A stretch of 38,148 nucleotides of DNA from a virus. Within the stretch, counting starts at the first letter, position 1. Every line of letters starts with the position of its first letter. The notes beneath the pieces were generated by a model. That model was not told where the DNA came from, made no database searches, and saw nothing but the letters and a program-made list of their open reading frames with translations. The DNA lies in the IMG/VR virus record IMGVR_UViG_3300037149_000215, positions 1-38,148 of that record. One strand, written 5' to 3'. Position numbers and translations under genes: made by a program. Positions 5,962 through 36,981 of this stretch are shown piece by piece.

Positions 5962-6082
5962 TGGCCGCGCAGACCGGCGGTCTCCGGTCATGCAGAAAAT
6001 GTCGGGTCGCCTAAGTATCTGCGCCCCCTCCGTTGTTCATGCCAGGGGCGCCGCTGGATCTCAGTCTGAATGTCTTGGCGGA

Positions 6083-8741: not shown

Positions 8742-10886
8742 TCAGTGCGGCGCTTGCCACCGCAGCAGCCGCATGGCGTTGGCCGTAACCAGCACGGTGG
8801 CGCCGGTGTCGGCGAGGATAGCGGGCCAGAGCCCGGTGATGCCGAGGATGGTGGTGACGAGGAAGACCGCCTTGAGGCCCAGCGACAGGGTGATGTTCTG
8901 GGTGATGTTTCCCATCACCGCGTGCGACAGGGCGATCATGTTGGGAATATCCGCCACACGCCCGTGCAGGCTTGCCGCGTCCGCCGTCTCCAGCGCAACG
9001 TCGGTGCCGCCGCCCATGGCGATGCCGATGTCGGCGGCGGCGAGGGCGGGCGCGTCGTTGATGCCGTCGCCCACCTTGGCAACGACCTTGCCGGACGCCT
9101 GCAGGTCGCGGACCACGCGCAGTTTGTCTTCGGGCAGCAGATCGGCGCGCGCGTCGATGCCGAGTTTTGCGGCGATCGCCGCAGCGGTGCGGGCATTGTC
9201 GCCGGTGAGCATGATGGTTGCGATGCCGGCGTTCTTGAGCGTGGCCAGTGCTGCTGCTGCATCGGGGCGCGGCTCGTCGCGCATCGCGAACAAGGCCGCC
9301 ACCTGATCGCCGACGAGCAGGACGGACACGCTCTTTCCGGCCTCGCCGAGCGCCGAGATGGTGGTGGCAGTCGCTTCAGCTATCTCGGTGCGCTCTCCGG
9401 CGGCCTGCGGCGAGCCGAGAAAGACGGTCTTGCCGCCGACGCTGCCGCTCACGCCCTTGCCGGCGATCGCCTTCGCGCCCATGGCGGGGGGAATGGGCGC
9501 CTTGTCGCGCGCCGCCCGGTCGAGGATGGCCAGCGCGAGCGGGTGCGACGAGCCGACCTCCAGCGCCGCGGCAAGCGACAGGGCCTGCGTTTCGCTGCGC
9601 CCGAGGGCGATGATGTCGGTCACCACGGGCTTGCCCTGGGTGAGCGTGCCGGTCTTGTCGAGCGCGACGACGGTGATCGTGCGCAGTTTTTCGAGCACGG
9701 CGCCCCCCTTCATCAGGAGGCCGCGACGGGCGCCCGCCGCGAGGCCTGCCGCGATCGCCGCCGGCGTCGAGATGATGAGGGCGCAGGGGCAGCCGATCAG
9801 CAGGATGGCGAGGCCCTTGTAGATCCATTCGCTCCACATTCCGCCGAACAGCAGCGGCGGCAGCACGGCCACCAGCGCGCCGACGACGAGGACGCCGGGG
9901 GTGTAGACAGTGGAGAAGCGATCGATGAAGCGCGCCGTTGGCGACTTGCTCTCCTGCGCCTCCTCGACGAGATGCACGACGCGGGCGATGGTGTTGTCCG
10001 CCGCGGCGGCCGTCACGCGGACAAGCAGCACCGCATCGGCGTTGACGGTGCCCGCGAAAACCTCGTCGCCCACAGATTTGCGTACCGGAACGCTTTCGCC
10101 GGTGACGGGGGACTGATCGACGGCGCTGGTGCCGTCGATGATCTCGCCATCGGCTGCGATGCGATCGCCGGGGCGGACGAGGATGGTGGCACCGATCGCC
10201 AGCTCCTCCACCGGGACTTCCCGGGTCTGGCCGTGCGCATCGACGACCAGCGCCATTTTCGGCACCAGCGCGGTCAGCCCCTTGATGCTGGCGCGGGCGC
10301 GGCCGGCGGCGACGCCTTCCAGCAATTCGCCCACGAGGAACAGCAGGACAACCGTCGCCGCTTCCTCGGTCGCGCCGATGAGGACGGCGCCGATCGCCGC
10401 GATGCTCATCAGCGTCTCGATCGAAAACGGCGTGCCGTTCAACGCCCCGGCAATCGCCCGCCGGCCCACGGGCACCAGCCCGACGAGGAGCGCCGCGAGA
10501 AAAGCCCAGTGACCAAGGGATGGCACCAGCTGCCCGACGACATAGGCGAGCAGCAGACCGGCGGCGCAGACGAGCGTGAGGATGGCTTTCGGCGATTGCC
10601 ACCACGGGCCGTCCTCGAGCGATCCGTGATCGTGGCTGTGCCCTGCAGCCGGCCGTTCGGCATCCCCGCCCGGGGCGCGAAGGGAATAGCCGAGGGCCTT
10701 GACGGTCCTTTCGATAGCGGCGTTCGGCACGCCGTCATGGGTGACTTTCAGCGTACCGACAGTGAACGACGCTTCGGCCTTCGACACGCCGGGGAGGCGG
10801 GCGACGGCAGTCTCGATCTTGGCCGCGCAGGCGGCGCAGTCCATTCCCTCGACCTGGTAGCGGGTGTTCAGGGCGGCTTCGGCCAT
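8742..10886 (-). CDS. zntA: Heavy-metal P1B-type ATPase, Zn/Cd/Pb exporter type
   Basis: A 714-residue metal pump. It starts with one heavy-metal-associated domain with 'GMDCAAC' at residues 14-20, then a histidine-rich linker 'GHSHDHG' and the membrane domain with the 'CPCALII' ion-binding motif near residue 365. The phosphorylation site 'DKTGTLTQG' is near residue 410, with 'SSHPLA' and 'TGDNARTAAAIA' in the cytoplasmic domains. The end includes 'KVGDGINDAPALAAADIGIAMGGGTDVALETAD', split here as K-V-G-D and D-V-A-L elements that fit the Zn/Cd/Pb subgroup. The start at 10886 is preferred over one 11 codons upstream because it gives the usual 'MAEAA...YQVEGMDC' N-terminus. A MerR-type operator lies just upstream. 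Confidence 0.9.
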   Translation of the reverse strand: MAEAALNTRYQVEGMDCAACAAKIETAVARLPGVSKAEASFTVGTLKVTHDGVPNAAIERTVKALGYSLRAPGGDAERPAAGHSHDHGSLEDGPWWQSPKAILTLVCAAGLLLAYVVGQLVPSLGHWAFLAALLVGLVPVGRRAIAGALNGTPFSIETLMSIAAIGAVLIGATEEAATVVLLFLVGELLEGVAAGRARASIKGLTALVPKMALVVDAHGQTREVPVEELAIGATILVRPGDRIAADGEIIDGTSAVDQSPVTGESVPVRKSVGDEVFAGTVNADAVLLVRVTAAAADNTIARVVHLVEEAQESKSPTARFIDRFSTVYTPGVLVVGALVAVLPPLLFGGMWSEWIYKGLAILLIGCPCALIISTPAAIAAGLAAGARRGLLMKGGAVLEKLRTITVVALDKTGTLTQGKPVVTDIIALGRSETQALSLAAALEVGSSHPLALAILDRAARDKAPIPPAMGAKAIAGKGVSGSVGGKTVFLGSPQAAGERTEIAEATATTISALGEAGKSVSVLLVGDQVAALFAMRDEPRPDAAAALATLKNAGIATIMLTGDNARTAAAIAAKLGIDARADLLPEDKLRVVRDLQASGKVVAKVGDGINDAPALAAADIGIAMGGGTDVALETADAASLHGRVADIPNMIALSHAVMGNITQNITLSLGLKAVFLVTTILGITGLWPAILADTGATVLVTANAMRLLRWQAPH

Positions 10887-15364: not shown

Positions 15365-16162
15365 TCAGCGCTTGGGGCCGCGACGTGGGCGAGGTGCCGC
15401 TACAGTCAGCGGCTCGGTCCCTGCGCCGGCATAGCCGAGGATTTCGCGGAGCGACAAGACCTTGTGGGTAGATAGGCCCGGCGACTTCATGAAGGAGATC
15501 TCGCCAGTAGGATGCAGCTGACGCGCCATCACCCGGTCTGCAAGATCGTCCTGCAGAATTTTGATGAATGCCGTCGGATTGCCGTTCCGGCTCTTATGCT
15601 CAATGACGATTATTGGGTCGCCGGGCGAGGCGGGTGAATGAGGGCTGACATAGACAGGGTCGCCTGGCCGATACATTGGCAGCATGGAGTCGCCCGTGAC
15701 CTCGAGGCCATATACATCCCGCAAGCCGACCAGGCCGGGAAGCATTGGCAGCGTCCCGATGGGTTGCTGATCGAGTAGTAGGGCCGTGCCCGCCGCAAGC
15801 GTCGAGCCGGCCGCCTGACCATAGATTTCGACCGTCCCAACAAGCCCCCCGGTTCCAGTCGCGTCCAGCACGCCGACGGAATGCAGGAAGCGCTGGCCGA
15901 CGCGGCGCAGGTCGTCTTCCGATGGCGGCGCACCTCGGTTCTTACCAATCCAATCGAGAGTGGTGCCAACCATGTCAGCGACGGCGTCCATGTTTCGCCG
16001 CGCGAGCCCCTTGCTGCCCTTCTCCCAATTACCAACAGCGCCTCGGGTAACGGGAGGTGACCCGGCAGATTTCAACTGCTGGTTCAATGCATCGGCGAAC
16101 TCGTCCTGAGTTAGCCCCATCCCCTTGCGGATGAATGCGATTCTTTCGGCGAGTGACTCCAT
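15365..16162 (-). CDS. CI-like phage repressor with S24 peptidase domain
   Basis: This 265-residue regulator has an N-terminal helix-turn-helix of the XRE type ('LAERIAFIRKGMGLTQDEFADALN...RGAVGNWEKGSKGL') and a C-terminal LexA/S24-type domain. The probable catalytic serine is in 'VTGDSMLPMYRPGD' and the lysine in 'NPTAFIKIL'. Such repressors keep the prophage silent and self-cleave when RecA filaments form. The start at 16162 is preferred; an upstream in-frame ATG at 16219 would overlap the operator. The next gene (cro-like) is divergent, and the operator lies between them. Confidence 0.88.
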   Translation of the reverse strand: MESLAERIAFIRKGMGLTQDEFADALNQQLKSAGSPPVTRGAVGNWEKGSKGLARRNMDAVADMVGTTLDWIGKNRGAPPSEDDLRRVGQRFLHSVGVLDATGTGGLVGTVEIYGQAAGSTLAAGTALLLDQQPIGTLPMLPGLVGLRDVYGLEVTGDSMLPMYRPGDPVYVSPHSPASPGDPIIVIEHKSRNGNPTAFIKILQDDLADRVMARQLHPTGEISFMKSPGLSTHKVLSLREILGYAGAGTEPLTVAAPRPRRGPKR

Positions 16163-16210
16163 GAGCGGCAGGATATTGAAAGGTAGGGTTTCAGTCTCCG
16201 ACAAATCTGG

Positions 16211-16238
16211 TTGCAACATATTGTAACCTGTGGTTTCA
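16211..16238. promoter_or_regulatory. Phage operator between repressor and Cro-like gene
   Basis: TTGCAACATATTGTAACC followed by TGTGGTTTCA is, on the opposite strand, the same sequence as at 14155-14182 apart from a few A/T exchanges. It holds the dyad GAAACC-ACA-GGTTAC and also the imperfect palindrome GGTTGCAA-CATA-TTGTAACC. It lies nine bases before the cro-like start and 48 bases before the repressor start, as expected for a switch operator. Confidence 0.75.
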
Positions 16239-16246
16239 GTGTTGCC

Positions 16247-16501
16247 ATGAGCGATGCTGAATCAGACCGTCTGATCCTGAAGGCCACGGCGCGGGCAAAG
16301 TCCGCTGCCGGCGGTCCTTCATCTCTGTCCCGGGCCCTGGGTCAGTCGGGGGAGGCCGTCTCGCCTCAGGCGATCAGCAAATGGTCGCGCGTGCCCGCTG
16401 AGCGGGTTCTTGAGGTCGAACGGTTGACGGGCGTCTCGCGCTACGAACTTCGGCCAGACGTCTACGGCCCCGCTCCCAAACCAGATCGGGGCGCCGCATG
16501 A
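16247..16501 (+). CDS. Cro-like (YdaS-type) DNA-binding protein
   Basis: An 84-residue protein with a YdaS/Cro-like helix-turn-helix: 'GGPSSLSRALGQSGEAVSPQAISKWSRVPAERVLEVERLTGVSRYELRPDVYG', quoted here as the overall pattern SLSRALG...PQAISKW...ERVLEVE...SRYELRPD. These proteins act as the early antirepressor partner of the phage CI protein. The ATG at 16247 lies directly behind the operator and opens the rightward early operon. The stop overlaps the next gene by four bases. Confidence 0.82.
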   Translation: MSDAESDRLILKATARAKSAAGGPSSLSRALGQSGEAVSPQAISKWSRVPAERVLEVERLTGVSRYELRPDVYGPAPKPDRGAA

Positions 16502-16665
16502 CGATGTCCCTTCTCTACGCCGGACTGTTTTTGATTTCGGCGGTGGCGAACCTGGTGATGGTGATCTTCATCCGTCTTGCCTTGGCCTCGTTCGACCGCA
16601 GGATCAGCCGGATCGAAACCTTGGTAGGCCGGGATGGAAGCGACAACACGAGGTGCGCGCGATGA
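16498..16665 (+). CDS. Small single-helix membrane protein
   Basis: A 55-residue open frame beginning 'MTMSLLYAGLFLISAVANL' with one strong hydrophobic segment (residues 4-31), followed by a basic and polar tail. ATGA overlaps with the gene before and the frame after support translation. No family is recognised. Confidence 0.55.
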   Translation: MTMSLLYAGLFLISAVANLVMVIFIRLALASFDRRISRIETLVGRDGSDNTRCAR

Positions 16666-20946: not shown

Positions 20947-21319
20947 CTCGACGACGTTCATGTATGGCGGAGACCAGAACTATGTGGTGCCGCGAGGCAC
21001 TAACCCGGCATTGCAGGCGCGCCGCAGTGTGCGCGGTGAGCCGCTGGAAGCCGGCGCCGTGCGGCAGCTGCGCGAGTGGCACGCGAAAACGAACGTGCGC
21101 TTTCGCCTGATGCAGCCGGGGCCGATCGAGGCGACGCCGGCCTATCTCCACATGGGTGATTTCAGCCGGTTCACGGCGGACGTCACCTACGCCTGGATCG
21201 GGCCGCGCGAAGCGCTGCGCCGCGTCCGCGCCCTTCACCCGCACCTCGCCGATCTCAGCATCGTGCCGGTGCCGCCGGCCCCGCGTGGGGAAATCTTGCA
21301 CTCAAGGAGGATCAGATGA
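20936..21319 (+). CDS. Hypothetical protein upstream of the DGR targets
   Basis: A 127-residue protein of unknown family. A ribosome site (GAGGAGG) precedes the ATG. The middle part 'VRFRLMQPGPIEATPAYLHMGDFSRFTADVTYAWIGPREALRRVR' looks beta-rich. Its stop overlaps the start of the first DGR target (ATGA), so both are translated from one message. It may be a chaperone or partner for the variable proteins, but this is only inferred from position. Confidence 0.6.
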   Translation: MPNSSTTFMYGGDQNYVVPRGTNPALQARRSVRGEPLEAGAVRQLREWHAKTNVRFRLMQPGPIEATPAYLHMGDFSRFTADVTYAWIGPREALRRVRALHPHLADLSIVPVPPAPRGEILHSRRIR

Positions 21320-22248
21320 GCAAGCAGGCTATTCAGAAGCTCGCCGCAGTCGGCGTGGCAATCACCTCACGGCCGCTGCATGTGGCGCCCGTGTTCATTG
21401 CGACGGGACGCGACAGCATCGCCATCCGCGCCGGCGCCGCGTTCAATGTCGCGGGCACCAGTCTGGTGTTCGATGAGCAGCGCGAGCTGCTCGTTGTCGG
21501 CGACCTGGTGCCCGGGCAGGATTATGTCGTGGCGCTCGGCGACGGCGATGCGCCCTATATCGGGCCGTGGCTTGACAATGACGAGCCCGTTCTAGGCGGC
21601 TTCCATTATGCGCCGGGCGGCAACGCCACCGCGCGGCAGGGCGGCGACGATGTGCCGGCGATCAATCCCTGCTCGATCTGGGACATCGGCTTTCGGCCGA
21701 CCTGCGCCGACCCGCGCGGCATGGCCTATGTCGCGGGCGTACCGGGCAGCTTCGGCGTCGCACCGTTCTGGGTCGATATTTATCTTTGCGCCGCTCGCCA
21801 CCTCGAACGGGGCACCAGCGTGTTCGGCGCGATCATTGCCGACGGCAGCGACCCGCCGCAGCAGGCGGACGGTACGCGGTTTGCGAAGCTCGATTATCCG
21901 ACGGCGCAGGCCGTCATGGCGCAGCACGGCAAGGGGCTGCTGAGCCTCAATGAGTTCGCCGCGTCAGCTTATGGCGTGACCGAAAAAACCAATGCCCGCA
22001 ACGACCCGAAGGTGACCGGCCTCGATGCGCCGCGCAGCTCGGGCTGCGGCGTCATGCAGGCGACGGGCAACCTCTACGTCTGGGGCCACGATGGTGACCC
22101 CGACGAACCCCGCGCTTCGATCTTCGGCGGGGACCGGGACAGCGGCGATTGGGCCGGCTCCCGGTACGCGCACGTCGACCACTGGCCGGACTACTCGAGC
22201 GGGTGGATCGGTGCGCGCGGCCGCAGTGACCACCTGCAACTTGTGTAG
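21316..22248 (+). CDS. DGR target protein 1 (variable C-type-lectin-fold protein)
   Basis: A 310-residue protein whose last 45 residues are the variable repeat. The central part holds motifs shared by DGR target proteins: 'GGFHYAPGGNATARQGGD', 'INPCSIWDIGFRP' and 'DPRGM'. The end ('MQATGNLYVWGHDGD', then 'WAGSRYA..DHWP...GWIGARGRSD') fits the C-type lectin/formylglycine-enzyme-like fold used by DGRs to display diversity. The N-terminal 85 residues are beta-rich and differ more from target 2. The protein likely binds a surface ligand, as Mtd does in Bordetella phage, but the ligand is unknown. A perfect AAGGAGG lies 5 bases before the ATG, the strongest ribosome site in the region. Confidence 0.88.
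   Translation: MSKQAIQKLAAVGVAITSRPLHVAPVFIATGRDSIAIRAGAAFNVAGTSLVFDEQRELLVVGDLVPGQDYVVALGDGDAPYIGPWLDNDEPVLGGFHYAPGGNATARQGGDDVPAINPCSIWDIGFRPTCADPRGMAYVAGVPGSFGVAPFWVDIYLCAARHLERGTSVFGAIIADGSDPPQQADGTRFAKLDYPTAQAVMAQHGKGLLSLNEFAASAYGVTEKTNARNDPKVTGLDAPRSSGCGVMQATGNLYVWGHDGDPDEPRASIFGGDRDSGDWAGSRYAHVDHWPDYSSGWIGARGRSDHLQLV
22112..22230 (+). repeat. DGR variable repeat 1 (VR1)
   Basis: 119 bases aligned with the template repeat at 23689-23807 without gaps. I count eight differences in the span from 22114; seven are at template adenines (to G four times, to C twice, to T once) and one is T to C. The last 28 bases are identical to the template and GC-rich, like an IMH. The changed codons lie at 6 AAC positions and neighbours of the C-terminal lectin-like domain. 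Confidence 0.9.
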
Positions 22249-22266
22249 CTGGCGCGAAAGCGCCGG
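22249..22266 (+). promoter_or_regulatory. Hairpin after VR1, candidate DGR target element
   Basis: GGCGC (22251-22255), a GAAA tetraloop and GCGCC (22260-22264) form a perfect stem, extended by a G-T and a C-G pair. It begins just after the target gene stop, 18 bases after the identical end of VR1. In the Bordetella phage DGR, a hairpin with a 4-base loop downstream of VR is needed for efficient retrohoming. Confidence 0.7.
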
Positions 22267-22297
22267 CACCCCTTCCTCAAACATTGGGACCTGAATC

Positions 22298-23206
22298 ATG
22301 AACACTGCAACTGCAGCAAAGACCGTTGGCCTGGCCGCCGAGATCATGGAACGGGCGGAAGCCGGGCCGATCCTCGTGCCGCGCGACCGCAATTTCCTCG
22401 TCCTGCGCGGCAGCACTTCCATCCGCATCGGCAATGTCACCAGCTGGTTCGAAGAGGATACGCCCGTCGCGCTGCCGAGCCTCGAGCCGGGGCGCGATTA
22501 TTTTGTCACGCTTGTCGACGGCGCGCCCGTCGCCAGCGAGGCGGAGGATGGCGAACTCGACGGTGTGCTGGGTGGCTTTCACTTCGCGCCCGGCGGCAAC
22601 GCTGCCGCCCGGCAGGGTGGCGACGAGGCGCCGGCGATCAACCCGTTCTCGTGCTGGGATCTGGGGTTCCGGCCGACCTGCGATGATCCGCGCGGCATGA
22701 CGCTCGTCGACGGCAAGTTCTGGTGCGACATCTATCTGCTCGGCAGCAATCCCTTTGCCGGCGGCAGCAGTCGGTTCGGCGTGACCATTGCCGACGACGG
22801 CGATCTGCCGCTCGCCGACAACGGCATGCCTTGCGCGTCGCTCGATCACCCAACTGCGGTGCAGATCTACGCGCTTTTGGGCAAGCAGCTGCTGGGTCCG
22901 GAAGAGTTCTTTGCCGCCGCCTATGGGGTGACCGAGGCGACGTCGCGCGGCGAGGATCCGGAGGTGACCGGCCTCGATGCCCCGCGCACCAGCAAATGGG
23001 GTGTCATGCAGGCGACCGGCAACATGTCCACCTGGGGCAATGACGGCGACCCCGATGGTCCGCGCCGGGCCTGCCGCTTCGGCGGGCGCTGGGGCTACGG
23101 CGTTTGGGCCGGCTCCCGGTACGCGAGCGTCGACCACTGGCCGGGCACCTCGTTCGAGTGGATCGGTGCGCGCGGCCGCAGTGACCACCTGCAACTTGAC
23201 GCCTGA
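22298..23206 (+). CDS. DGR target protein 2 (paralog of target 1)
   Basis: A 302-residue paralog of target 1. It shares 'LGGFHFAPGGNAAARQGGDEAPAINP', given here as GGFHFAPGGNA...ARQGGD...INP, as well as 'WDLGFRPTC' and 'DPRGM', and the C-terminal 'GVMQATGN' plus variable repeat. The N-terminal region has diverged ('MNTATAAKTVGLAAEIMERAEAG'), so the two may attach to the virion or to each other differently. Between residues 120 and 150 it lacks about six residues present in target 1. The variable segment carries more changes than that of target 1. It lies 49 bases after target 1, with no strong ribosome site. Confidence 0.87.
   Translation: MNTATAAKTVGLAAEIMERAEAGPILVPRDRNFLVLRGSTSIRIGNVTSWFEEDTPVALPSLEPGRDYFVTLVDGAPVASEAEDGELDGVLGGFHFAPGGNAAARQGGDEAPAINPFSCWDLGFRPTCDDPRGMTLVDGKFWCDIYLLGSNPFAGGSSRFGVTIADDGDLPLADNGMPCASLDHPTAVQIYALLGKQLLGPEEFFAAAYGVTEATSRGEDPEVTGLDAPRTSKWGVMQATGNMSTWGNDGDPDGPRRACRFGGRWGYGVWAGSRYASVDHWPGTSFEWIGARGRSDHLQLDA
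23067..23185 (+). repeat. DGR variable repeat 2 (VR2)
   Basis: Aligned to the template without gaps. From CTTCGGCGGG (23077) to the identical end CAGTGAC (23185) there are 11 differences, all at template adenines (G, C and T replacing A). The first ten bases (23067-23076) differ at mixed bases and are probably outside the converted tract. The final 30 or so bases are identical to the template. Confidence 0.92.
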
Positions 23207-23222
23207 GCGATAGCGACAGGCG
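23200..23222 (+). promoter_or_regulatory. Hairpin after VR2, candidate DGR target element
   Basis: CGCCTG (23200-23205) pairs with CAGGCG (23217-23222), and inside is a short GC-GATA-GC mini-stem. It begins 14 bases after the identical end of VR2 and overlaps the stop codon of target 2. Its sequence is unrelated to the VR1 hairpin, but its position is the same. Confidence 0.6.
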
Positions 23223-23235
23223 AACGGCAATCCAG

Positions 23236-23670
23236 ATGACCAGGGCGAGCGCCATAATCCGCGATGAGCGAGCTTCTTACGACGAGATGGCGATCGTCGA
23301 GAAATACGAGGATTTCTTGAACTACGCCTATCCGAAGATTCAGAACTGCCCCCGCAAGCACGGTATCGTTCGCGACACCGTGCTTGCGGCCGTTCTGGAA
23401 CCGGTCGGTGGGTTTTATGCCGCCGGGCGCTCCAGCCAGGTGTCGCGCCTCTATGCACTCGATGCCCAGCTGGCGACGATCCGGTTCTGGTTGCGCTTCC
23501 TCTCCCGTCCCAGCCGGGCCGTGCTCACGACCCACCAGGCCGCCGAAAGCCTGAAACGCCTCAACGAAGTTGGCCGGATGCTGGGCGCGTGGATCGGGAA
23601 GCTGAGTGGCCGCGCGCCGGCCGCACCAAAAGACAAAGGATCGGACGCGCACGCGCGTCCGCTGGGGTGA
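23236..23670 (+). CDS. avd: DGR accessory variability determinant (Avd)
   Basis: A 144-residue, mainly helical protein of the Avd/bAvd four-helix-bundle family. The core 'MAIVEKYEDFLNYAYPKIQNCPRKHGIVRDTVL', shortened here to EKYEDFLNY..PKIQNCPRKHG, and 'LYALDAQLATIRFWLRFLS' with 'LKRLNEVGRMLGAWI' are typical. Avd forms a pentameric barrel that binds the reverse transcriptase and the template RNA. It is basic, as expected. The start at 23236 is uncertain; ATG at 23287 would also give a complete bundle. The C-terminal tail is low-complexity and ends 18 bases before the template repeat. Confidence 0.88.
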   Translation: MTRASAIIRDERASYDEMAIVEKYEDFLNYAYPKIQNCPRKHGIVRDTVLAAVLEPVGGFYAAGRSSQVSRLYALDAQLATIRFWLRFLSRPSRAVLTTHQAAESLKRLNEVGRMLGAWIGKLSGRAPAAPKDKGSDAHARPLG

Positions 23671-24011
23671 ACGGGGAAATGATGCGGGGCGCTTCGATCT
23701 TCGGCGGGAACTGGGACAACGGCGATTGGGCCGGCTCCCGGTACGCGAACGTCGACAACTGGCCGGACAACTCGAACGAGTGGATCGGTGCGCGCGGCCG
23801 CAGTGACGACCGATCTGTGTCGTGGACATTCATCGCTCTGCGGCGGCCACGGCCCCGCAGGCTTCATACACTTGGGCGCGGCACCTCGCTTCGCCCCCGG
23901 TGGTCAGCCCGATCATCCCGCTTCGGCGAACACATTCCACGGTCCGGCGGAACGGGGCGTAGCGCGGTTTGCCGCGTCGAGACCCGCGGCCGGCTTTCTT
24001 GGGGGCGTCAA
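23671..24011 (+). ncRNA. DGR template RNA region (TR plus spacer)
   Basis: Non-coding interval between avd and the reverse transcriptase. It contains the template repeat and then 200 bases of spacer. In studied DGRs the RNA across the avd end, template and spacer is the template and primer scaffold for reverse transcription. The ends of the RNA cannot be read from sequence. The interval is open in the frame of the reverse transcriptase, but the encoded residues look like non-coding translation after the repeat. Confidence 0.7.
23689..23807 (+). repeat. DGR template repeat (TR)
   Basis: The template matches both variable repeats. It holds six AAC codons in the target reading frame (Asn in GGN, DNG, ANV, DNW, DNS, SNE), the classic codon for DGR diversification since mutating its adenines can give most residue types but no stop codon. 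After CAGTGAC (23801-23807) the sequence departs from the variable repeats (GACCGATCTG against CACCTGCAAC), marking IMH* against IMH. Confidence 0.92.
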
Positions 24012-24998
24012 TTGGCAAAGCGATATCGCAACCTCATCGGCCGCATCACGGCCGACGACAATATGCGCGAGGCCCTGCGCCTCACGGCGCGCGGCAAGCG
24101 GCTGACGACCGGGTTTCTCGAGTTCAAGGAGTTCGCGCCGCTCAACCTCGAGGAGCTGGCGCGCGAGATGCGCGGCGGCGCCTATGTGCCCGGGGCGCCG
24201 CACCAGTTCCAGATTTTCGATCCGAAATTGCGCACCATTTCGGCGCTGCCGTTTCGCGATCGGGTGGCACAGCAGGCGCTCTGCCTGGTCATCGGGCCGC
24301 TGTTCGATCGGGCGTTGCTGCCGCATTGTTATGCCTGTCGGCCCGGCAAGGGCACCCATGCCGGGGTGCGTGATGTGCAGGCGGCGGTGCGCCGCATCGG
24401 GCGGCACGGGCAGCCGGTCTATGTGCTCAAGACCGACTTTTCGCGCTATTTCGCCTCGATCGAATTGCCGGTGTTGTGGCGGTTGATCGAACGGAAGATC
24501 AGTTGCCGGGCCACGCTCGACCTGATCGGCGCCATCGTGCCGCGGGAGGGCATCGGCCTGCCCATCGGCTCGCTGACCTCGCAGATCTTCGCCAATATCT
24601 ACACCGGCCTGACGCTCGACCGGCTGCTGCAGCAGGATCTCGGCGAGACCGACTGGTTTCGCTACATGGATGATCTTGTCGTGCTCAGCACGTCGTCGGA
24701 GCATCTGCGCCGGCTGAAGGTCGCCATCGAACGCTATTCGGCCGACCATCTCGGCCTGCGCTTTTCGAAATGGTCGATCGCGCCGGCAGCGCGCGGCATC
24801 AACTTCCTCGGTTATCGGATCTGGGCGACGCACAAGCTGCTGCGCCGCGACAGCGTGGTGCGGGCGCGCCGGAAGATCGCTGCCTATCGCGCCGCCGGCG
24901 ACAGCGTGCGGCTGCAGCGTTTTCTCGGCGCCTGGCTGGGGCATGCAAGCCATGCCGACACGCGCAATCTGGTGCGGGCCTTGGGGGTAACCTCATGA
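24012..24998 (+). CDS. DGR reverse transcriptase
   Basis: A 328-residue reverse transcriptase from a TTG at 24012. It has 'KTDFSRYFASIE' (catalytic Asp about residue 142), 'GSLTSQIFANIYTG' (residues 186-199) and 'YMDDLVVLS' (Tyr218, Asp220, Asp221). The SQ in the GxxxSQ motif distinguishes DGR enzymes from group II intron and retron types, which usually have QGxxxSP. It copies the template RNA with errors at adenines, and the cDNA replaces the variable repeats. The frame continues upstream through the template to 23589; the TTG is chosen because the following residues 'AKRYRNLIGRITADDNMREAL' fit family N-termini. The stop overlaps the next gene (ATGA). Confidence 0.93.
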   Translation: MAKRYRNLIGRITADDNMREALRLTARGKRLTTGFLEFKEFAPLNLEELAREMRGGAYVPGAPHQFQIFDPKLRTISALPFRDRVAQQALCLVIGPLFDRALLPHCYACRPGKGTHAGVRDVQAAVRRIGRHGQPVYVLKTDFSRYFASIELPVLWRLIERKISCRATLDLIGAIVPREGIGLPIGSLTSQIFANIYTGLTLDRLLQQDLGETDWFRYMDDLVVLSTSSEHLRRLKVAIERYSADHLGLRFSKWSIAPAARGINFLGYRIWATHKLLRRDSVVRARRKIAAYRAAGDSVRLQRFLGAWLGHASHADTRNLVRALGVTS

Positions 24999-25267: not shown

Positions 25268-26232
25268 CCTTCACACCAACCTCTGTCGTGCACCTAGTTA
25301 GCGGCGGCATGGGCAGTTGGCTGGCCGCGAATCTGGCGATGGAAACACATCCACAGGCGGAGCACCATTTCAGCTTTACCGACGTCCTTTACGAGGATGC
25401 CGACTGTTACCGTTTTCTGCTAGAGGGCGTCTGCTATCTGCTGGGCCGCGAAATGTCGTGGGTGCCGGCCGCCGATGAATTCCCCGACTACCGTGTGCCC
25501 GACGACACGCCGATCGAGGACTATCACGGCAACCCTGAGTGGCGAGCGTTTCTCGCCAATCTTCGCACCCTGGCCGCAGTGCATTTGCCGGAGCTCCACT
25601 GGCTGGTGGAAGGACGCGACCCATGGGAGGTTTTTCGCGACGTCCGCTTCCTCGGCAACAGCAGCGTAGATCCGTGCTCGAAACATCTGAAGCGCCAGCT
25701 GCGCGACAAGTGGTTGAGGGCCAATTTCGATCCTAGCGAGACGCTCGTCGTCGTCGGCATCGGCTTTGACGAACGGCACCGCTTCGACAATGGCGAAGGG
25801 GGTGGTTTCGGCCCAAGGCGGGCCGCCGATGGCTGGCATGCCGCGGCGCCGCTGGTCGACTCGTTACATGGCGATATGGGGCCGCTGCACTTCGTTCGGA
25901 AGGCAGGGCTTCTCGTTCCCCGCCTCTATCCGCTCGGCTACTCGCATAACAATTGCGGTGGTTATTGCTGCAAGGCTGGACACGAGCATTTCCGCAATCG
26001 GCGCAATGTTCAACCCGAGCGCTTCGCCTATGACCGGATGATGGAGCGCAAAATCATCGCCCACCTCGGCGCGGACGTCTCCATGCTGACCGACCGCTCC
26101 GGTGACGGCGAAAAGAAGCCTCTGACGCTCGACGAACTCGACAGTCGCCTCGCTGCCGATCCCCAGCTTACGTTCGAGTGGGTGACCGGGTCGAGCGGTT
26201 GCGGCTGCATGATCGACGAGGTGGGGGCATGA
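25264..26232 (+). CDS. PP-loop (PAPS-reductase-like) phage protein
   Basis: A 322-residue protein beginning at TTG 25264. The N-terminus 'SVVHLVSGGMGSWLAANLAME' holds an SGGxxS PP-loop, the ATP-pyrophosphate site of the adenine-nucleotide alpha-hydrolase superfamily. 'SFTDVLYEDADCYRFL', 'PCSKHLKRQLRDKWL' and 'VVGIGFDERHRF' continue that fold. A cysteine cluster follows ('NNCGGYCCKAGHEHF', and 'GSSGCGCMIDE' at the very end), possibly binding metal. Similar enzymes activate substrates by adenylation for sulfur transfer or for nucleobase modification. It could be a DNA or RNA modification enzyme of the phage, but the substrate is unknown. The canonical SGGxDS aspartate is a glycine here. Confidence 0.75.
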   Translation: MTFTPTSVVHLVSGGMGSWLAANLAMETHPQAEHHFSFTDVLYEDADCYRFLLEGVCYLLGREMSWVPAADEFPDYRVPDDTPIEDYHGNPEWRAFLANLRTLAAVHLPELHWLVEGRDPWEVFRDVRFLGNSSVDPCSKHLKRQLRDKWLRANFDPSETLVVVGIGFDERHRFDNGEGGGFGPRRAADGWHAAAPLVDSLHGDMGPLHFVRKAGLLVPRLYPLGYSHNNCGGYCCKAGHEHFRNRRNVQPERFAYDRMMERKIIAHLGADVSMLTDRSGDGEKKPLTLDELDSRLAADPQLTFEWVTGSSGCGCMIDEVGA

Positions 26233-28551: not shown

Positions 28552-29142
28552 ATGGCCACTCATGCTCTGCCGGAAGGCGTTGACGACGCTGTACTGAACC
28601 GCGCGCAGCTGGCGCGGGCGCTCAACAAATCGGAGCCGTCCATCGACCGATATCGCGGCGATGGGATGCCATACCTCACGGAAGGTACAAACGGCCGAGC
28701 GTGGGAATTCCAGCTGTCGGCGTGCTGGAGCTGGCTCAAGGATCGCGAGCGGGACGATGTCGAGCAGCGCTCGCAGGCCGAAAAGGCCGTCCAGCAAATG
28801 CGCCTCGCGCTGATTGGCGGGGACGATGACGCTGACCACGATCGCGCGCTCAGTCCGAGGCAACGGCAGGAGGCTTATGATGCGGAACGGGCGTGGATGC
28901 TCGCCGCGCTGCAGCGTGGCGACCTGGTGCGCCGGGCCGAGGTCGTCGAGGCGTTCGAGGATGTTTTCAAGACCTTGCGCGATGCGTTGACCGGCCTGCC
29001 CGACAAGCTCGAGCGCGAGCTGGGGATGCAGGGCAAGGCGCTCGACCTGGCCATCGAGATCTGTGACACGGCGCTCGGTGAGGCGGAGAGAAGGGTCGGA
29101 GATCTGGCCGGCGGCGAGGGCTACAAGCAGGCGGCGCAATGA
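28552..29142 (+). CDS. Terminase small subunit (Nu1-like)
   Basis: A 196-residue protein. Near the N-terminus is a winged-helix-like segment ('LNRAQLARALNKSEPSIDRYRGDGMPYL'), like Nu1 of lambda, which recognises packaging sites on phage DNA. The middle is acidic and helical, as in the DUF1441-type small terminases. The large subunit follows with a four-base overlap (ATGA), which makes the assignment reliable. Confidence 0.83.
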   Translation: MATHALPEGVDDAVLNRAQLARALNKSEPSIDRYRGDGMPYLTEGTNGRAWEFQLSACWSWLKDRERDDVEQRSQAEKAVQQMRLALIGGDDDADHDRALSPRQRQEAYDAERAWMLAALQRGDLVRRAEVVEAFEDVFKTLRDALTGLPDKLERELGMQGKALDLAIEICDTALGEAERRVGDLAGGEGYKQAAQ

Positions 29143-31295
29143 GTATGGCGGAGCCGGACTATCGGCGCGACAAGGGCCGGTTGCCCTCGTTCGCTGATGC
29201 GATGGGGTGCGTGAGGGAGGCGCTGCCGGCGCTCGCGCCTTCACTCAGGATATCGGTCCCAGAAGCCGCGGCGCGGTATCGCGTCGTTGATGCGCCTGGC
29301 TATCGCGGACCATGGCGCAATGAGGTTGCGCCGCAGATGGTCGAGCCGCAGGCGATGATGACTTCGCGGCGGTATGAAGGGGTGATCTTCGTCGGGCCGG
29401 CGCGTACGCTGAAGACCGATGGCATGGTGGTCAACGTCATTGCCCACCGGGTCATGACGCAGCCGCGCGACGTGCGCGTCATCCACATGAACAAGGATAC
29501 GGCCCGCGAGTTCTCGCTGGGCACGATCGACAAGATGATCCGCACCTCGCCGGCCATCAGCGCCCGGCTGGTCCGGGGGCGGCGCGCCGACAACATCTTT
29601 GACAAGCAGTTCTCGGGCGGCATGCGGCTGACCATCGGTTGGCCGGTGATCGGGCAATTGTCAGGCGTCACGCTCTCCGATGTGCTGTTTACCGACTACG
29701 ACCGGATGCCCGAAGACGTCGATGGCGAGGGCGAGCCGTTTGGCCTTGGACGCAAGCGCACCGCAACGGTCGGCTCGACCGGCAAGGTGATGGCGGAGAG
29801 TTCGCCGGGCCGACCGATCCTCGACGACGAGTGGAAGCCGGCGACGCCGCATGAGCCGCCGCCGACCACGGGGATCGTGAACCTCTACGGTCAGGGAACA
29901 CGCGGCCGGCTCTACTGGCCCTGCCCGCATTGCGAAAAGTTCTATCAGCCGACCTTCTCGCGCCTGCGCTGGCCGGATGGCGCGTCACCGGTTGAGGCCG
30001 GCGAGCAGGCGAAGATGTTGTGCCCGTATTGCGAAAAGGGCGCGGAAGCCTCGCTGAAGAGCCAATTGCTGGCCGCCTCGATGTGGCTGCACGAGGCGGC
30101 CGACGATGGAATTGGTGGATACCTCAAGGGGCTGACGCGGATCGACGGCAATGTGCGCCGGGCGAGCCTTGCCAGCTACTGGATGTTCGGGCCTGCGGCG
30201 TCGTTCCAGACCTGGGCGAAACTGGTCGCGGCGTTCCTGCAGGCCGAGGAAGTCTATCGCAGAACCGGCGACGAGAAGGCGCTGCAGGTGACGGTCAACG
30301 TCGACCATGGCGATGCGTATCGACCGCGCGCCATGGGAACCGCAAGCCTGCTGACGGCGACGGAACTGAAGAAGCGCGCGGTCAAGGGGTTGGGGGAAAA
30401 GGGCGCGCGGCTGGTGCCGGCGAACACGCGCTTTGTCACCATCCAGGTGGACGTACAGGCGAACCGCTTTGTCGTGCAGGCCGATGCCTGGGCGCCGCAG
30501 CTCGAGCGTACGCTGGTCGACCGGTTCGAGCTGTTCGAGCCTGCGGACAACAGTGAGCGGGCGATCGATCCGGCGCGCTATATCGACGACTGGAACGCCA
30601 TCGCAACCCTGCTCGATCGAGAGTACACGGTCGATGGCATGGGCCATGTGCTGCGCCCGGCCTTTGTCGTGACCGACAGCGCTGGTGCGCCAGGTGTCAC
30701 GGCGAACGCCTACAAGTTCTGGCGGCGCATGCGAAAGCGCGCCCTCGGGCTGCGCATCATGCTGGTGCGTGGCAACCACGTCAAACATGGCCTGCCCGAG
30801 GCACAACGGCGCGCATACATCGCCTATCCGGAACGATCGACAGAGAACGGCAAGAAAGTGCAGCTCGATGTGCCGGTCATCTGGATCGGCACCGACGCAC
30901 TCAAGGACGAGATCAGCGCGGCGCTCACTCGCGACGAGATCGGTGAGGGTTCTTACAACGTCCTCGATCATGTCGGCGACCAGGTGTTCGAGGAGCTGGC
31001 GGCGGAGCGGCGCAGCGACAAGGGCTGGGACAAGCGCCCCGGCGTGCTGCGCAACGAGGCGCTCGACCTCGCGGTCTACGGCAAGGGCCTCGTGATCGTC
31101 AAAGGCGGCGAAAAGATCGATTGGTCGGCGCCGCCGAATTGGGCCGCGCCGATGGAAAGCAACATCAACGCCTCGCGCATCGAAGGCGCGCCGCAACCGA
31201 TCGTCGAGCCCGCGCCAGCACCGGCCACCGTGGCTGAGACGCCGCGGCGCGAGGGCTGGCTGGGCGGCCGGCGCAGAGGATATCTCGGGAGATAG
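29139..31295 (+). CDS. Terminase large subunit (GpA family)
   Basis: This 718-residue DNA-packaging motor belongs to the lambda GpA family. The ATPase region contains a Walker A-like 'GPARTLKTDGM' near residue 86 and a Walker B-like 'DVLFTDYDRMPED' near residue 185. Two CPxC pairs ('CPHCEKFYQ', 'CPYCEKG') near residues 265 and 295 form the family's zinc site. The nuclease domain lies in the second half, with 'FVTIQVDVQANRFVVQ' and 'VVTDSAG'. It translocates DNA into proheads and cuts it. The C-terminal 40 residues are proline-rich and basic. Confidence 0.92.
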   Translation: MSMAEPDYRRDKGRLPSFADAMGCVREALPALAPSLRISVPEAAARYRVVDAPGYRGPWRNEVAPQMVEPQAMMTSRRYEGVIFVGPARTLKTDGMVVNVIAHRVMTQPRDVRVIHMNKDTAREFSLGTIDKMIRTSPAISARLVRGRRADNIFDKQFSGGMRLTIGWPVIGQLSGVTLSDVLFTDYDRMPEDVDGEGEPFGLGRKRTATVGSTGKVMAESSPGRPILDDEWKPATPHEPPPTTGIVNLYGQGTRGRLYWPCPHCEKFYQPTFSRLRWPDGASPVEAGEQAKMLCPYCEKGAEASLKSQLLAASMWLHEAADDGIGGYLKGLTRIDGNVRRASLASYWMFGPAASFQTWAKLVAAFLQAEEVYRRTGDEKALQVTVNVDHGDAYRPRAMGTASLLTATELKKRAVKGLGEKGARLVPANTRFVTIQVDVQANRFVVQADAWAPQLERTLVDRFELFEPADNSERAIDPARYIDDWNAIATLLDREYTVDGMGHVLRPAFVVTDSAGAPGVTANAYKFWRRMRKRALGLRIMLVRGNHVKHGLPEAQRRAYIAYPERSTENGKKVQLDVPVIWIGTDALKDEISAALTRDEIGEGSYNVLDHVGDQVFEELAAERRSDKGWDKRPGVLRNEALDLAVYGKGLVIVKGGEKIDWSAPPNWAAPMESNINASRIEGAPQPIVEPAPAPATVAETPRREGWLGGRRRGYLGR

Positions 31296-31297
31296 CA

Positions 31298-31495
31298 GTG
31301 GCCTATTCGCAAGCCGACATCGACGAGGTTCAGCGCATCCTCGCATCCGGTGCATCGAGCATCACCTACACCAGCGGTTCGGTCACCTACCGGTCGCTCG
31401 ACGATCTGCGCCGGCTCCTGGTCGACATGCAGCGCGACGTCAATTCCACGGCCACCAGGACGCGAACCGTCGGTCGTTTTGAAAGTGGGTTCTAA
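31298..31495 (+). CDS. gpW-like head-tail joining protein
   Basis: A 65-residue protein from a GTG with GGGAG ribosome site. The pattern 'QADIDEVQRILASGASSITYTSGSVTYRSLDDLRRLLVDMQRDV' shows the helix, two-strand and helix shape of the gpW family, and it lies between terminase and portal as in lambda. It stabilises packaged DNA and helps tail attachment. Confidence 0.8.
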   Translation: MAYSQADIDEVQRILASGASSITYTSGSVTYRSLDDLRRLLVDMQRDVNSTATRTRTVGRFESGF

Positions 31496-32985
31496 TGGAA
31501 GCGCCGAAGCCGACATTGCTCGACAGGGCGATCCTGTGGGCCAACCCCAAGCGGGGCCTGTCACGCATCATGCATCGCACGCAGGCGCAGCTGATGATGA
31601 GCGCCTACAACGCGGCAAGCCCGTCGCATCGCAACTCCAGCCGGCGCTATCGTGCCGGAGACGCCAACAGCGCTGTGCTCAGTGGCGCGCGGCGGCTGCG
31701 CTTCGCAGCTCGCGACCTCGAACGCAATAATCCGGTCGCGACGCGGATCACCTCGGTGCTGACCTCGAACGTGATCGGCACGGGCATCATTCCGGCGGTA
31801 GCCGGGGTGCGCGGGGCACGGACGCGCGACGCGTTGCAGAACATCGTCAACGCCCATTGCGACACGCCGATGGTCGACGCCGCAGGTCGGCAGAACCTCT
31901 ACGGCCTCGAGGCGGTGGCGTTCCATGCCGCCGTGCGCGACGGCGAAAGCCTGCTGGTACGTCGGCGTGCCATGGCCCGCGAGGGCTTGCCGCTACCGTT
32001 CCAGATCGCGGTGCTCGAAGCCGACTACTTCGATGAGCGGGTGCACGGGCCGCTGAGCAACGGCAATGTCGCGATCGAGGGTATCGAGTTCAATCCGCGC
32101 GGCGCGCCCGTCGCCTATCACCTTTACGATCGGCATCCGGGCGACGTGGTGTTTGCCGGCGCGCGCACCACGACGCGCTACGATGCTGCCGATGTCGTAC
32201 ATCTTTATCGGATTGACCGGCCCGGCCAGGCGCATGGGGTGAGCTGGCTGGCGCCGGTGATGGTCCGCCTTGGCGACTTTGAGGATACCAAGGACGCCTA
32301 TATTCTTCGGCAGAAGATCGCCGCGTGCTTCGTCGCCTTCGTCACGAAGACGGATGTTGCGGGCTCGCCAGTCGATCAGGGCAAGACGAGGGCAGGCACG
32401 CCGCTGGAGACGGTCGAGCCTGGCACGGTCGAGCACCTGCAACAGGGCGAAAGCGTCACCTTCGGCACGCCGCCGGTCGTCGGCGACCTTGAGGCTTTCT
32501 TCCGGGTCAACGCCCGCGATATCGCCGTGGGTGTGGGGATGACTTACGAGGCGCTGACCGGCGACCTCAGCAACGTCAATTTTTCCTCGGGTCGCATGGG
32601 CTGGCTAGAGTTCTACCGCAATATTGCAGCGTGGACCGAGCACATGGTGCTGCCCCAGCTCTGCCATAAGGTGGGCGGCTGGATCATGGACGGGCTGATG
32701 CTCGTCGCCAATGTGCCGATCGGCACGATGATCAACTGGACGCCACCTCGGCGTGAGATGATCAACCCGTCCGAAGAGCTGAAGGCGGCTGCGCAGGCCG
32801 CACGCGACGGCCTGGGTACGCGCAGCCAGTGGCTGCGATCGAGCGGCTACGATCCCGAAAAGGTCGACGAAGAGCGCGCGGCGGAGATCGATCGTGAGCA
32901 GCGGCTCGGGCTCGAATACGACACTTATGTGGGGCCGCTTGCGGCGGCTCAGACGATCCCCCCGAAAGGCAAGGAGACAGCCTGA
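31495..32985 (+). CDS. Portal protein (lambda family)
   Basis: A 496-residue portal that forms the dodecameric ring through which DNA enters the head. The family's features include an N-terminal 'YNAASPSHRNSSRRYRAGDANSAV', summarised as RRYRAGDANS, 'RARDLERNNPVA'-like 'ARDLERNNPVATRIT', 'GVSWLAPVMVRLGDFEDTKDA' and 'GMTYEALTGDLSNVNFSSGRMGWLEF', shortened as GDLSNVNFSSGR. The position after gpW fits the lambda order. It shares bases with the previous stop and with the next start (TGATG). Confidence 0.92.
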   Translation: MEAPKPTLLDRAILWANPKRGLSRIMHRTQAQLMMSAYNAASPSHRNSSRRYRAGDANSAVLSGARRLRFAARDLERNNPVATRITSVLTSNVIGTGIIPAVAGVRGARTRDALQNIVNAHCDTPMVDAAGRQNLYGLEAVAFHAAVRDGESLLVRRRAMAREGLPLPFQIAVLEADYFDERVHGPLSNGNVAIEGIEFNPRGAPVAYHLYDRHPGDVVFAGARTTTRYDAADVVHLYRIDRPGQAHGVSWLAPVMVRLGDFEDTKDAYILRQKIAACFVAFVTKTDVAGSPVDQGKTRAGTPLETVEPGTVEHLQQGESVTFGTPPVVGDLEAFFRVNARDIAVGVGMTYEALTGDLSNVNFSSGRMGWLEFYRNIAAWTEHMVLPQLCHKVGGWIMDGLMLVANVPIGTMINWTPPRREMINPSEELKAAAQAARDGLGTRSQWLRSSGYDPEKVDEERAAEIDREQRLGLEYDTYVGPLAAAQTIPPKGKETA

Positions 32986-35150
32986 TGCATTGGCTCATCG
33001 TGAATGGCGAGCTTGTCCTCTACGGCTATGTCGGCCAGAGCGACTGGGACATGCCGGGCTTCCTCGCGCGTGACGTGCTCGACGCGCTGCTGCTGATCGA
33101 TGGCGACGTGACCGTGCGCCTCAACAGTGGCGGCGGGCTCGCGATGGAGGGCCTTGCAATCTACAACACGTTGCGCCTCCATGCGCAGCGGAACGGCGTC
33201 AAGATCCTCGTCATCGTCGACAGCGCTGCGGTTTCCGCCGCAAGCCTCATCGCCATGGCCGGCGATGAGGTGACCATGCTGCCCGGCTCGCTGATGATGA
33301 TCCACGACCCGAGTACGGTCGTCATCGGCACCGCCGACGAACAGCGCCAGAGCGCCGATATCACCGACAAGATGGCCGACCAGTTCGCGGCGGTCTACGC
33401 GCAGAAGGCGGGTATCACGCCCGACGAGGCCCGGGCGATCATGAAGGCCGAGACCTGGTACACGCCAGAAGAGGCCGTCGCTGCCGGGTTTGCCGATGCG
33501 GTAGGAGAAGGCGACGCCAAGGCGGTCGCCTTGTTCGATTATCGCCTCTACGCCAATTCCCCCTCTCCGCTGACGCTGCTGGCTACAGCGTCTGCAACGA
33601 TGTTCCAGCCGAAAGCGGCTCCCGCCGCGCAACCCCAGGAGACCAGCATGAAGCTCGAAGAGCTCATTGCCATGCTTGCCGCGCGGTTCAAGTCGCCGGC
33701 CGATGACGTACAGATGTTTCTCAACCAGGCGATCGGGGCAGGCATCCCGCTCGCCGAGCTGACCCCGCTCGTCAAGGACGCGGCGACGATGGCCGCTGCC
33801 AAGAGTGCCGTCCAGGCCAAGGCCGCTGCCCTGCTTGGGGTCACGCCGGCGCCGGTGGTTACCCCGCCGGTCGTCTCGACGATGTCGGTGGCGGACGTGC
33901 TGGACCTGACCGGCCGTGCCGCCGCCGCCGGTCTCGACATCGCCGCGACCAATGCGATCATGGCCGCGCACTCGACCAAGGATGCGGCCCTGGCGGCTAT
34001 CATCGACAAGGTCGCCGAGATGCGCGGCAGCACCGCGCCGACCGCGACGGCGCAGGTGACGGTGGATGCTCGCGAGAAGTTCCGCGAGGGCGCCTCTCTC
34101 GCCCTGATGGCGAAGGTGGGCATCGCGGAAGGGCAGCGCAACGAGTTCTCCGGTCTCAGCCTCCCCGAGCTGGCCCGCGAAAGCCTGACGATGGCCGGGA
34201 ACACGGCGGCGCGCAGACTCGACAAGATGTCGATGGTGGGCTCGGCGTTCACCTATGCCGCGACGATGTCGGGCGGCATGATGACGACTTCGGACTTCGC
34301 CTACATCCTGCAGAATGTTGCCAGCAAGTCGGCGCTGAAGGGGTATCAGGAGGCCGACGAGACGTTCCAGCTCTGGACGTCCAAAGGTTCGGCGTCCGAC
34401 TTCAAGCCGATCAGCCGCGTCGATCTTGGTCTCTTTCCCAACCTGCTGAAGGTCGAGGAGGGTTCCGAGTTCAAGTACGGTACGATCGGGGACCGGGGCG
34501 CCAGCGTCGTCATCGCGACCTATGGCCGTCTGATCAATATTTCGCGTCAGGCGATCATTAACGACGACCTGTCGATCCTCGGCACGATGCCGCTGAAGAT
34601 GGGTCGGGCGGCCAAGCGTACCGTGGGCAATCTCGCCTATGGGGTGCTGACGGCGAACGCGAACATGCCGGACGGCGTGCCGCTGTTCGACGCCGCGCAC
34701 AAGAACCTCGGCACCGCGGGCGCGCCCTCGGCGGCGGCGTGGGAAGAGGCGGTCAACCTGATGGGCAAGCAGGTGGACAACGAGGCGATTGCCACCGCGC
34801 TCAATATCCGTCCGAAATATTTCCTCTCGGGTGCGTACGAGTTTCTCGCCAAGCAGCTGCTAACCTCGACAGCATCGCTGGCCGACCACAAGAATGCCGG
34901 TGTCGCCAACACGGTACAGGGTCTCGTGACGCCGATCACCGATCGGCGCATCACCGGCAACCAGTGGTTCTTCGCCGCCGATCCGAACCAGTACGACACG
35001 GTCGAAATCACCTACCTCGACGGCATCGAGGAGCCGGTGGTCGAGACCAAGGATGGCTGGACGATCGACGGGACGGAGCTGAAGGTGCGGCTCGATGCCG
35101 GCGCCAATTTGCTCGACTACCGCGGCCTGGTGAGGAACGCCGGCGCCTGA
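32985..35150 (+). CDS. Prohead protease / major capsid protein fusion
   Basis: A 721-residue fusion. Residues 1-200 are ClpP-like (S14/S49 type), with 'VRLNSGGG', the serine in 'VDSAAVSAASLIAMAG' and the histidine in 'LMMIHDPS'. A linker and scaffold-like helical region (about residues 210-350) follow. From about residue 360 to the end is a major capsid domain of the Mu gpT-like or HK97 fold ('FAYILQNVASKSALKGYQEADETFQLW', short form KGYQEADETF, and 'INDDLSILGTMPLKMGRAAKRT', short form DDLSILGTMP). The fused protein presumably cleaves itself during maturation, releasing capsid subunits. No start that would produce the capsid part alone is obvious. Confidence 0.9.
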   Translation: MHWLIVNGELVLYGYVGQSDWDMPGFLARDVLDALLLIDGDVTVRLNSGGGLAMEGLAIYNTLRLHAQRNGVKILVIVDSAAVSAASLIAMAGDEVTMLPGSLMMIHDPSTVVIGTADEQRQSADITDKMADQFAAVYAQKAGITPDEARAIMKAETWYTPEEAVAAGFADAVGEGDAKAVALFDYRLYANSPSPLTLLATASATMFQPKAAPAAQPQETSMKLEELIAMLAARFKSPADDVQMFLNQAIGAGIPLAELTPLVKDAATMAAAKSAVQAKAAALLGVTPAPVVTPPVVSTMSVADVLDLTGRAAAAGLDIAATNAIMAAHSTKDAALAAIIDKVAEMRGSTAPTATAQVTVDAREKFREGASLALMAKVGIAEGQRNEFSGLSLPELARESLTMAGNTAARRLDKMSMVGSAFTYAATMSGGMMTTSDFAYILQNVASKSALKGYQEADETFQLWTSKGSASDFKPISRVDLGLFPNLLKVEEGSEFKYGTIGDRGASVVIATYGRLINISRQAIINDDLSILGTMPLKMGRAAKRTVGNLAYGVLTANANMPDGVPLFDAAHKNLGTAGAPSAAAWEEAVNLMGKQVDNEAIATALNIRPKYFLSGAYEFLAKQLLTSTASLADHKNAGVANTVQGLVTPITDRRITGNQWFFAADPNQYDTVEITYLDGIEEPVVETKDGWTIDGTELKVRLDAGANLLDYRGLVRNAGA

Positions 35151-35184
35151 TCTCAACGGCAGTTTGCACCACGAAGATACGACT

Positions 35185-35204
35185 GAGGCGCCTTCGGGCG
35201 CCTC
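35185..35204 (+). terminator. UUCG-loop hairpin between capsid and cement genes
   Basis: GAGGCGCC, TTCG loop and GGCGCCTC form a perfect 8-bp stem with the stable TTCG tetraloop, followed by GTCGTTTT. It resembles a terminator but lies inside the late operon, so it may be partial and set lower expression of the downstream tail genes, or protect the capsid mRNA. Confidence 0.65.
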
Positions 35205-35255
35205 GTCGTTTTCAGCGCCCGGAATGGTCCGGTGCGCCAGCAGCGAGACATCACC

Positions 35256-36959: not shown

Positions 36960-36981
36960 CCTTACCCAACAGGAGATTACC

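Follow-up and report, generated by a model that had tools for sequence, protein, structure and literature searches.

A phage diversity-generating retroelement with one template, two tandem Mtd-like targets, and a template repeat in frame with its reverse transcriptase

The viral record IMGVR_UViG_3300037149_000215 of the IMG/VR collection, analyzed here over its full 38,148 bases and referred to below as the window, very probably carries an intact BPP-1-type diversity-generating retroelement (DGR) of an integrated temperate tailed phage, in which two receptor-binding-type proteins are diversified from one template. The layout proposed in a preliminary description of this DNA holds: target 1, target 2, avd, the template repeat (TR), and the reverse transcriptase (RT) follow one another in that order at 21316-24998 with every frame intact, and the variable repeats (VRs) of the two adjacent, diverged targets both match the single TR. 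The features of the element are as follows.

21316-22248, plus strand: target 1, 310 amino acids, Mtd-like, carries VR1 (PF21916, phrog_11262, PDB 1yu4)
22112-22230, plus strand: VR1, 119 nucleotides, matches TR 23689-23807 (repeat finder)
22248-22267, plus strand: hairpin after VR1, gctggcgc-GAAA-gcgccggc, with a GRNA loop (rule from PMC3240598)
22298-23206, plus strand: target 2, 302 amino acids, diverged Mtd-like paralogue, carries VR2 (phrog_11262, AlphaFold2/Foldseek)
23077-23185, plus strand: VR2, 109 nucleotides, matches TR 23699-23807 (repeat finder)
23200-23222, plus strand: imperfect hairpin after VR2, CGCCTG-A-GC-GATA-GC-GA-CAGGCG
23236-23670, plus strand: avd, accessory variability determinant, 144 amino acids (NF033474, PF22296)
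23679-24998, plus strand: proposed read-through cistron, 439 amino acids if fused, with its ATG 8 nucleotides after the avd stop
23689-23807, plus strand: template repeat (repeat finder)
23808-24011, plus strand: TR-RT spacer, positional counterpart of the BPP-1 'sp' RNA (BPP-1 spacer role: PMC12875486)
24012-24998, plus strand: DGR reverse transcriptase, 328 amino acids, TTG start (PDB 8ub7, GSLTSQ, YMDD)

The case for diversification of both targets rests on the three copies of the repeat, TR, VR1, and VR2, which are the only ones in the whole record. A 119-base repeat had been ascribed to both targets, and this length stands for VR1, while the match of VR2 extends over 109 nucleotides. In ungapped matches from the repeat finder, TR and VR1 differ at eight positions, seven of which are TR adenines (hypergeometric P=2e-5), and TR and VR2 differ at 11, every one of them a TR adenine (P=9e-10). 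The two VRs differ from each other at 15 positions, 14 of them TR adenines, and their cores are identical at 86 of 87 non-adenine sites. Outside the VRs, the target genes are mostly 42-73% identical per 60-nucleotide stretch, with one stretch at 85%, and because a nearly identical non-adenine core lies amid such diverged genes, both targets appear to have been overwritten from the same TR. The parallel diversification of the two targets that had been proposed for this element is well supported by these differing adenine changes on an almost identical background. The TR core (23700-23807) contains 21 adenines and six AAC codons, and none of its possible adenine substitutions yields a stop codon.

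For diversification, RT and Avd would copy the TR RNA into complementary DNA (cDNA), making errors at adenines, and this cDNA would then replace the 3'-terminal VR of one or the other neighboring Mtd-like gene, with the outcome that two receptor-binding-type proteins would be varied independently from one template. The components for such a process are in place. RT contains GSLTSQ and YMDD, in agreement with the DGR-type motifs (GxxxSQ, YMDD) previously read in it, matches the solved structure PDB 8ub7 ('Reverse transcriptase', 328 amino acids) at 1e-104, and is 51% identical to BPP-1 brt along its length, while Avd passes both the NCBIfam cut-off for NF033474 (2e-29) and the Pfam cut-off for PF22296 (5e-25). 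Efficient homing in BPP-1 requires a GC-rich hairpin with a GRNA-type loop immediately 3' of the VR (PMC3240598). The VR matches in the window stop 18 nucleotides (target 1) and 21 nucleotides (target 2) before the gene ends, and VR1 is followed by a hairpin of this kind, with a stem of eight positions and a GAAA loop. Across the lineage, a GRNA-loop hairpin follows 91 of 99 VRs, compared with 0.8% of positions drawn at random from these loci.

Both targets are related to Mtd, the receptor-binding protein encoded by the BPP-1 DGR. Target 1 matches PF21916 above the cut-off (4e-8) and target 2 falls below it, and both match phrog_11262, 'tail protein' (3e-69 and 5e-71, respectively). Target 1 aligns with Mtd (PDB 1yu4, 2e-37) from Mtd residue 64 and has the architecture of the Mtd second domain followed by a C-type-lectin-type C-terminus that holds VR1. 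An AlphaFold2 model of target 2 has a mean predicted local distance difference test (pLDDT) score of 79, with the VR part low, and the only significant Foldseek matches for this model are Mtd structures (1yu4, E=4e-24, template modeling score 0.76). Sequence and Foldseek together therefore identify the Mtd second domain and the C-terminal lectin-type domain in the targets, and Mtd homology in both sequence and fold places each VR at the 3' end of a C-type-lectin-type gene. As the targets are N-terminally shorter than Mtd, we refer to them as Mtd-like rather than Mtd. Based on this homology, they would be displayed on the virion, where they would choose receptors. A match to an Mtd-like target (39%) was also found in the gene 17 tail fiber of LR745707.1 and LR745708.1, two entries named Escherichia phage T7.

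A search with RT recovered 80 viral loci and 24 genome loci. The nearest relative, L082, has an RT 86% identical to that of the window and also a tandem target pair, and named relatives include Afipia, Mesorhizobium, Rhizobium, Bradyrhizobium, Rhodopseudomonas, and Shinella, from which the bacterial host of the phage is probably an alphaproteobacterium. Targets were counted in the 59 non-redundant loci with enough upstream sequence, the window included, with the TR search in relatives confined to the region just upstream of RT; this restriction lost one VR each in L084, L069, and L093 that a wider search showed, and L084 was counted as single because it has one target gene. By this count, targets are in tandem in 31 loci (30 double, one triple), two are separated in five, and 23 loci have a single target, while the 12 scored loci whose RTs are more distant (43-58% identity) are all single-target. 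The rarity of two targets implied by the preliminary description is thus not borne out: more than one VR or target occurs in roughly one seventh of the DiGReF set (PMC3521204), two targets are found in about 13% of DGRs according to a figure cited in PMC10743442, multiple VRs are present in 28.6% of 948 DGRs (PMC6642488), and over half of the relatives counted here have at least two. Indeed, DGRs in which a single TR serves several paralogous targets with independent adenine changes have been known since 2012 (PMC3521204). Adenine tallies for TR-VR mismatches across the relatives came from an aligner that penalized non-adenine mismatches more heavily and are not an unbiased test. Three relatives have arrangements of their own. 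In L099, a Rhizobiales genome, three tandem Mtd-like targets share one TR (6437-9256); in L016, a minus-strand open reading frame (15377-16600 in reverse-strand coordinates) encodes a second Mtd homologue with no recognisable VR near a single-target DGR; and in L113, an Ideonella dechloratans plasmid, two successive avd-RT pairs (2888-6287) possibly represent two DGRs side by side.

Trees of the targets, computed with the VRs removed, place target 1 and the upstream target of L082 in one deep clade and target 2 and the downstream target of L082 in another, with support of 86 and 82 in the rooted analysis and 98 and 98 in the unrooted one; the trees were built quickly and are moderately supported at their deepest split. 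Upstream targets of the largest group mostly cluster apart from the downstream ones, in clades of their own (96, 95). Judging from these trees, the target pair of the window is old and not a fresh duplication, and such pairs seem to persist rather than always arising anew, although the pair may go back either to one ancestral duplication or to repeated assembly. In the literature searched, we found no description of an old, co-maintained Mtd-like pair in this lineage. With two old receptor-binding-type paralogues under one template, a phage could change two specificities independently.

It might be argued that the targets, which are adjacent, homologous, and in the same orientation, result from a recent tandem duplication that left the second copy redundant. 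We reject this explanation, which we regard as highly improbable, on the grounds of the divergence seen in most 60-nucleotide stretches outside the VRs and of the separate deep clades that target 1 and target 2 share with their L082 counterparts; there is also no relative among those recovered whose pair is nearly identical outside the VR. With respect to current function, the element may be active today and would retrohome as BPP-1 does, and indirect support for retrohoming is provided by relatives L054 and L059. The TRs of these two loci are identical, the flanks of their two targets are 87% and 98% identical, and in both targets every VR difference falls on a TR adenine (17 of 17 and 9 of 9). 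This pattern shows independent diversification of both tandem targets in that pair of relatives, and not thereby in the window.

Several observations weigh against an intact, active, virion-directed element in the window. Searches of the viral collection with exact TR/VR patterns returned no near-identical relative, the nearest RT being the one at 86%; the hairpin after VR2 has a bulged stem and a GATA loop; a non-adenine T-to-C change at 22135 in VR1 converts W to R in GGxW, a position at which W is kept in 117 of 119 VRs, and may leave target 1 weakened until the next homing event; the N-terminal beta-prism of Mtd, its presumed attachment to the tail fiber (PMC10743442), is missing from the targets, which begin at approximately Mtd residue 41; and the DGR is located upstream of the terminase and packaging genes (28552-37968), as it is in L082. 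The altered, nearly invariant tryptophan and the imperfect VR2 hairpin would suit a relic that formerly diversified both targets and no longer works. We consider a relic quite unlikely, however, given that the reading frames, RT motifs, and VR1 hairpin are all intact and that the VR cores contain a single non-adenine difference altogether. Moreover, VR2 has more adenine changes than VR1, and its imperfect stem has therefore not prevented homing. The lack of the beta-prism and the position of the cassette between early-region and packaging genes, outside any tail module, raise a different question, namely whether the targets are parts of the virion at all or cargo expressed by the prophage in the service of the lysogen. 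A cargo role seems unlikely, since the targets are homologous to Mtd across most of their length and to the 'tail protein' family phrog_11262.

Aside from its two targets, the DGR of the window differs from that of BPP-1 in the reading frame of its template, and here we lean toward the interpretation that TR is translated within the RT cistron, with one RNA serving as both messenger RNA and mutagenic template, and with RT supply, ribosome traffic, and template use coupled. Of 72 loci, 64 have an RT frame that stays open across the spacer and TR, compared with 20 and 9 for the other frames. In 50 loci, the coding phase of TR is that of RT, so that the TR frame runs into RT, and the spacers of these loci contain one stop in 3,359 codons in this frame, as opposed to 48 and 69 in the others, counts that are non-independent owing to conserved blocks. 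On the RT tree, 39 changes in the TR-RT length require only six changes of phase, and in disjoint nearest pairs that differ in this length, 15 of 19 differ by multiples of three (P=6e-5), with two odd shifts canceling in five of those pairs, the window and L082 among them. Unique inserts, with zero, two, and five stops in the three frames, give a weak signal in the same direction. Of 59 loci, 58 retain an ATG in the TR frame immediately ahead of TR, and in 42 of these 58 it forms a four-base overlap (ATGA) with the avd stop. The median Shine-Dalgarno energy of this ATG is -7.2 kcal/mol, as against -5.9 for the RT start and -2.7 for random positions. Even in the eight out-of-phase loci, the spacer is open as far as the end of the TR frame, which coincides with the RT start or lies close to it (at +1 in three loci, +5 in four, and -13 in one), with stops that may perhaps derive in part from the N-terminal codons of RT itself. 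Five gammaproteobacterial phage and plasmid DGRs with 45-61% G+C likewise have no stop in the TR frame, and their annotated RT starts lie within 3 nucleotides of the avd end or before it; an open TR frame is not present in L111, L113, L116, L117, and L118.

Under translation of TR, ribosomes would initiate at the ATG that overlaps the avd stop or lies directly after it, read across TR and the spacer, and then either continue in frame into RT or terminate at the RT start codon. As all 59 of 59 loci retain the RT start codon, RT's own start is probably used as well, and the simplest account would be that continuity rather than peptide sequence is selected, with RT produced in two forms, one fused and the other initiated at the RT start. 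Such continuity might shield a long untranslated stretch from transcription termination, might set the amount of RT through coupling to Avd, or might allow nascent RT to bind, and possibly act on, its own RNA. If TR is translated, these DGRs should make less RT once stop codons are introduced into the TR frame.

The open frame may instead be a by-product of high G+C, a conserved spacer RNA, and shared ancestry, with TR untranslated, an explanation that we find less persuasive but that has considerable merit. Substitutions in the spacer show no third-position excess, and its G+C by codon position (0.63/0.73/0.66) is not gene-like in comparison with that of RT (0.63/0.47/0.81); given this absence of a coding signal, the leader peptide itself is probably not under selection. 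The motif before TR resembles the GGGAAATAACG of BPP-1, where reverse transcription is halted by a motif at the avd messenger RNA end (PMC12875486), and whereas the window TR lies in the RT frame behind an ATG, the TR of BPP-1 is in a different phase from brt and has no such ATG. On the other hand, a by-product would not readily account for the few phase changes among so many length changes, the excess of length differences in multiples of three, the retention of an ATG with a strong Shine-Dalgarno site and frequent ATGA overlap, the termination of out-of-phase frames at or near the RT start, or the similar behavior of phage and plasmid DGRs with 45-61% G+C. Translation of TR in the RT cistron thus remains our preferred interpretation, and the data suggest that it is the rule in this lineage. 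No description of conservation of the TR frame was found in the literature searched; the nearest published cases are the ACA phages (PMC10612066) and a class in which 'TR overlaps the annotated RT ORF' (PMC3521204). For the ACA phages, the authors state that translation of TR gives RT an N-terminal extension, an arrangement that they call uncommon (PMC10612066), whereas 58 of 59 loci of the window lineage have either in-frame continuation or coupling. In Escherichia coli, a native operon whose TR carried TAATAA was nearly inactive until a ribosome-binding site was added before brt, which its authors attributed to the lack of a clear ribosome-binding site (PMC12875486). The near inactivity of this operon would also fit a need for upstream translation, of which that result is no test.

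Among known systems, the BPP-1 DGR (mtd-avd-TR-brt) shares with the window the gene order, homologous RT, Avd, and Mtd, the adenine pattern, and the GRNA hairpin after the VR, but it has one target rather than two, and both targets of the window lack the Mtd beta-prism. The multi-VR DGRs of DiGReF, such as that of Rhodomicrobium vannielii with two VRs, resemble the window in having one TR, two paralogous targets, and independent adenine changes (PMC3521204), while the pair in the window comes from a lineage of phages with old and frequent tandem pairs of Mtd-like genes. The nd4 and nd12 phage DGRs with tentaclins also combine one TR with two phage C-type-lectin-like targets (PMC10743442); those targets differ in architecture, however, whereas both targets of the window are Mtd-like with C-terminal VRs. 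In Pseudoalteromonas phage ACA1, there is a four-base overlap between avd and the RT gene (PMC10612066), and ACA1 and ACA2 have one target where the window has two.

The surroundings of the DGR point to a temperate phage. It is preceded by a repressor gene, a ParB-like/MT-A70 methylase gene, and a DUF6551 gene and followed by genes for a likely small terminase, the large terminase, portal, head protease/capsid, and tail tube; from this gene content, we take the window to represent an integrated tailed phage whose tail module is cut off by the end of the record. Unlike the BPP-1 DGR, which lies beside tail-fiber genes, the DGR of the window lies upstream of the packaging genes, and in other relatives, its neighborhood varies between loci, as if the cassette moved as a unit. 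A search of the window found no tRNA genes. The left 11 kb of the window contains what look like bacterial-type genes, including a glycosyltransferase gene and others that, from their open reading frame translations, we take to be cysK, cysD, cysN/C, cydA/B, and a metal P-type ATPase gene. Directly 3' of the DGR, a gene of 319 amino acids (25273-26229) has no Pfam match; its sequence hints at a possible PAPS-reductase-like fold.

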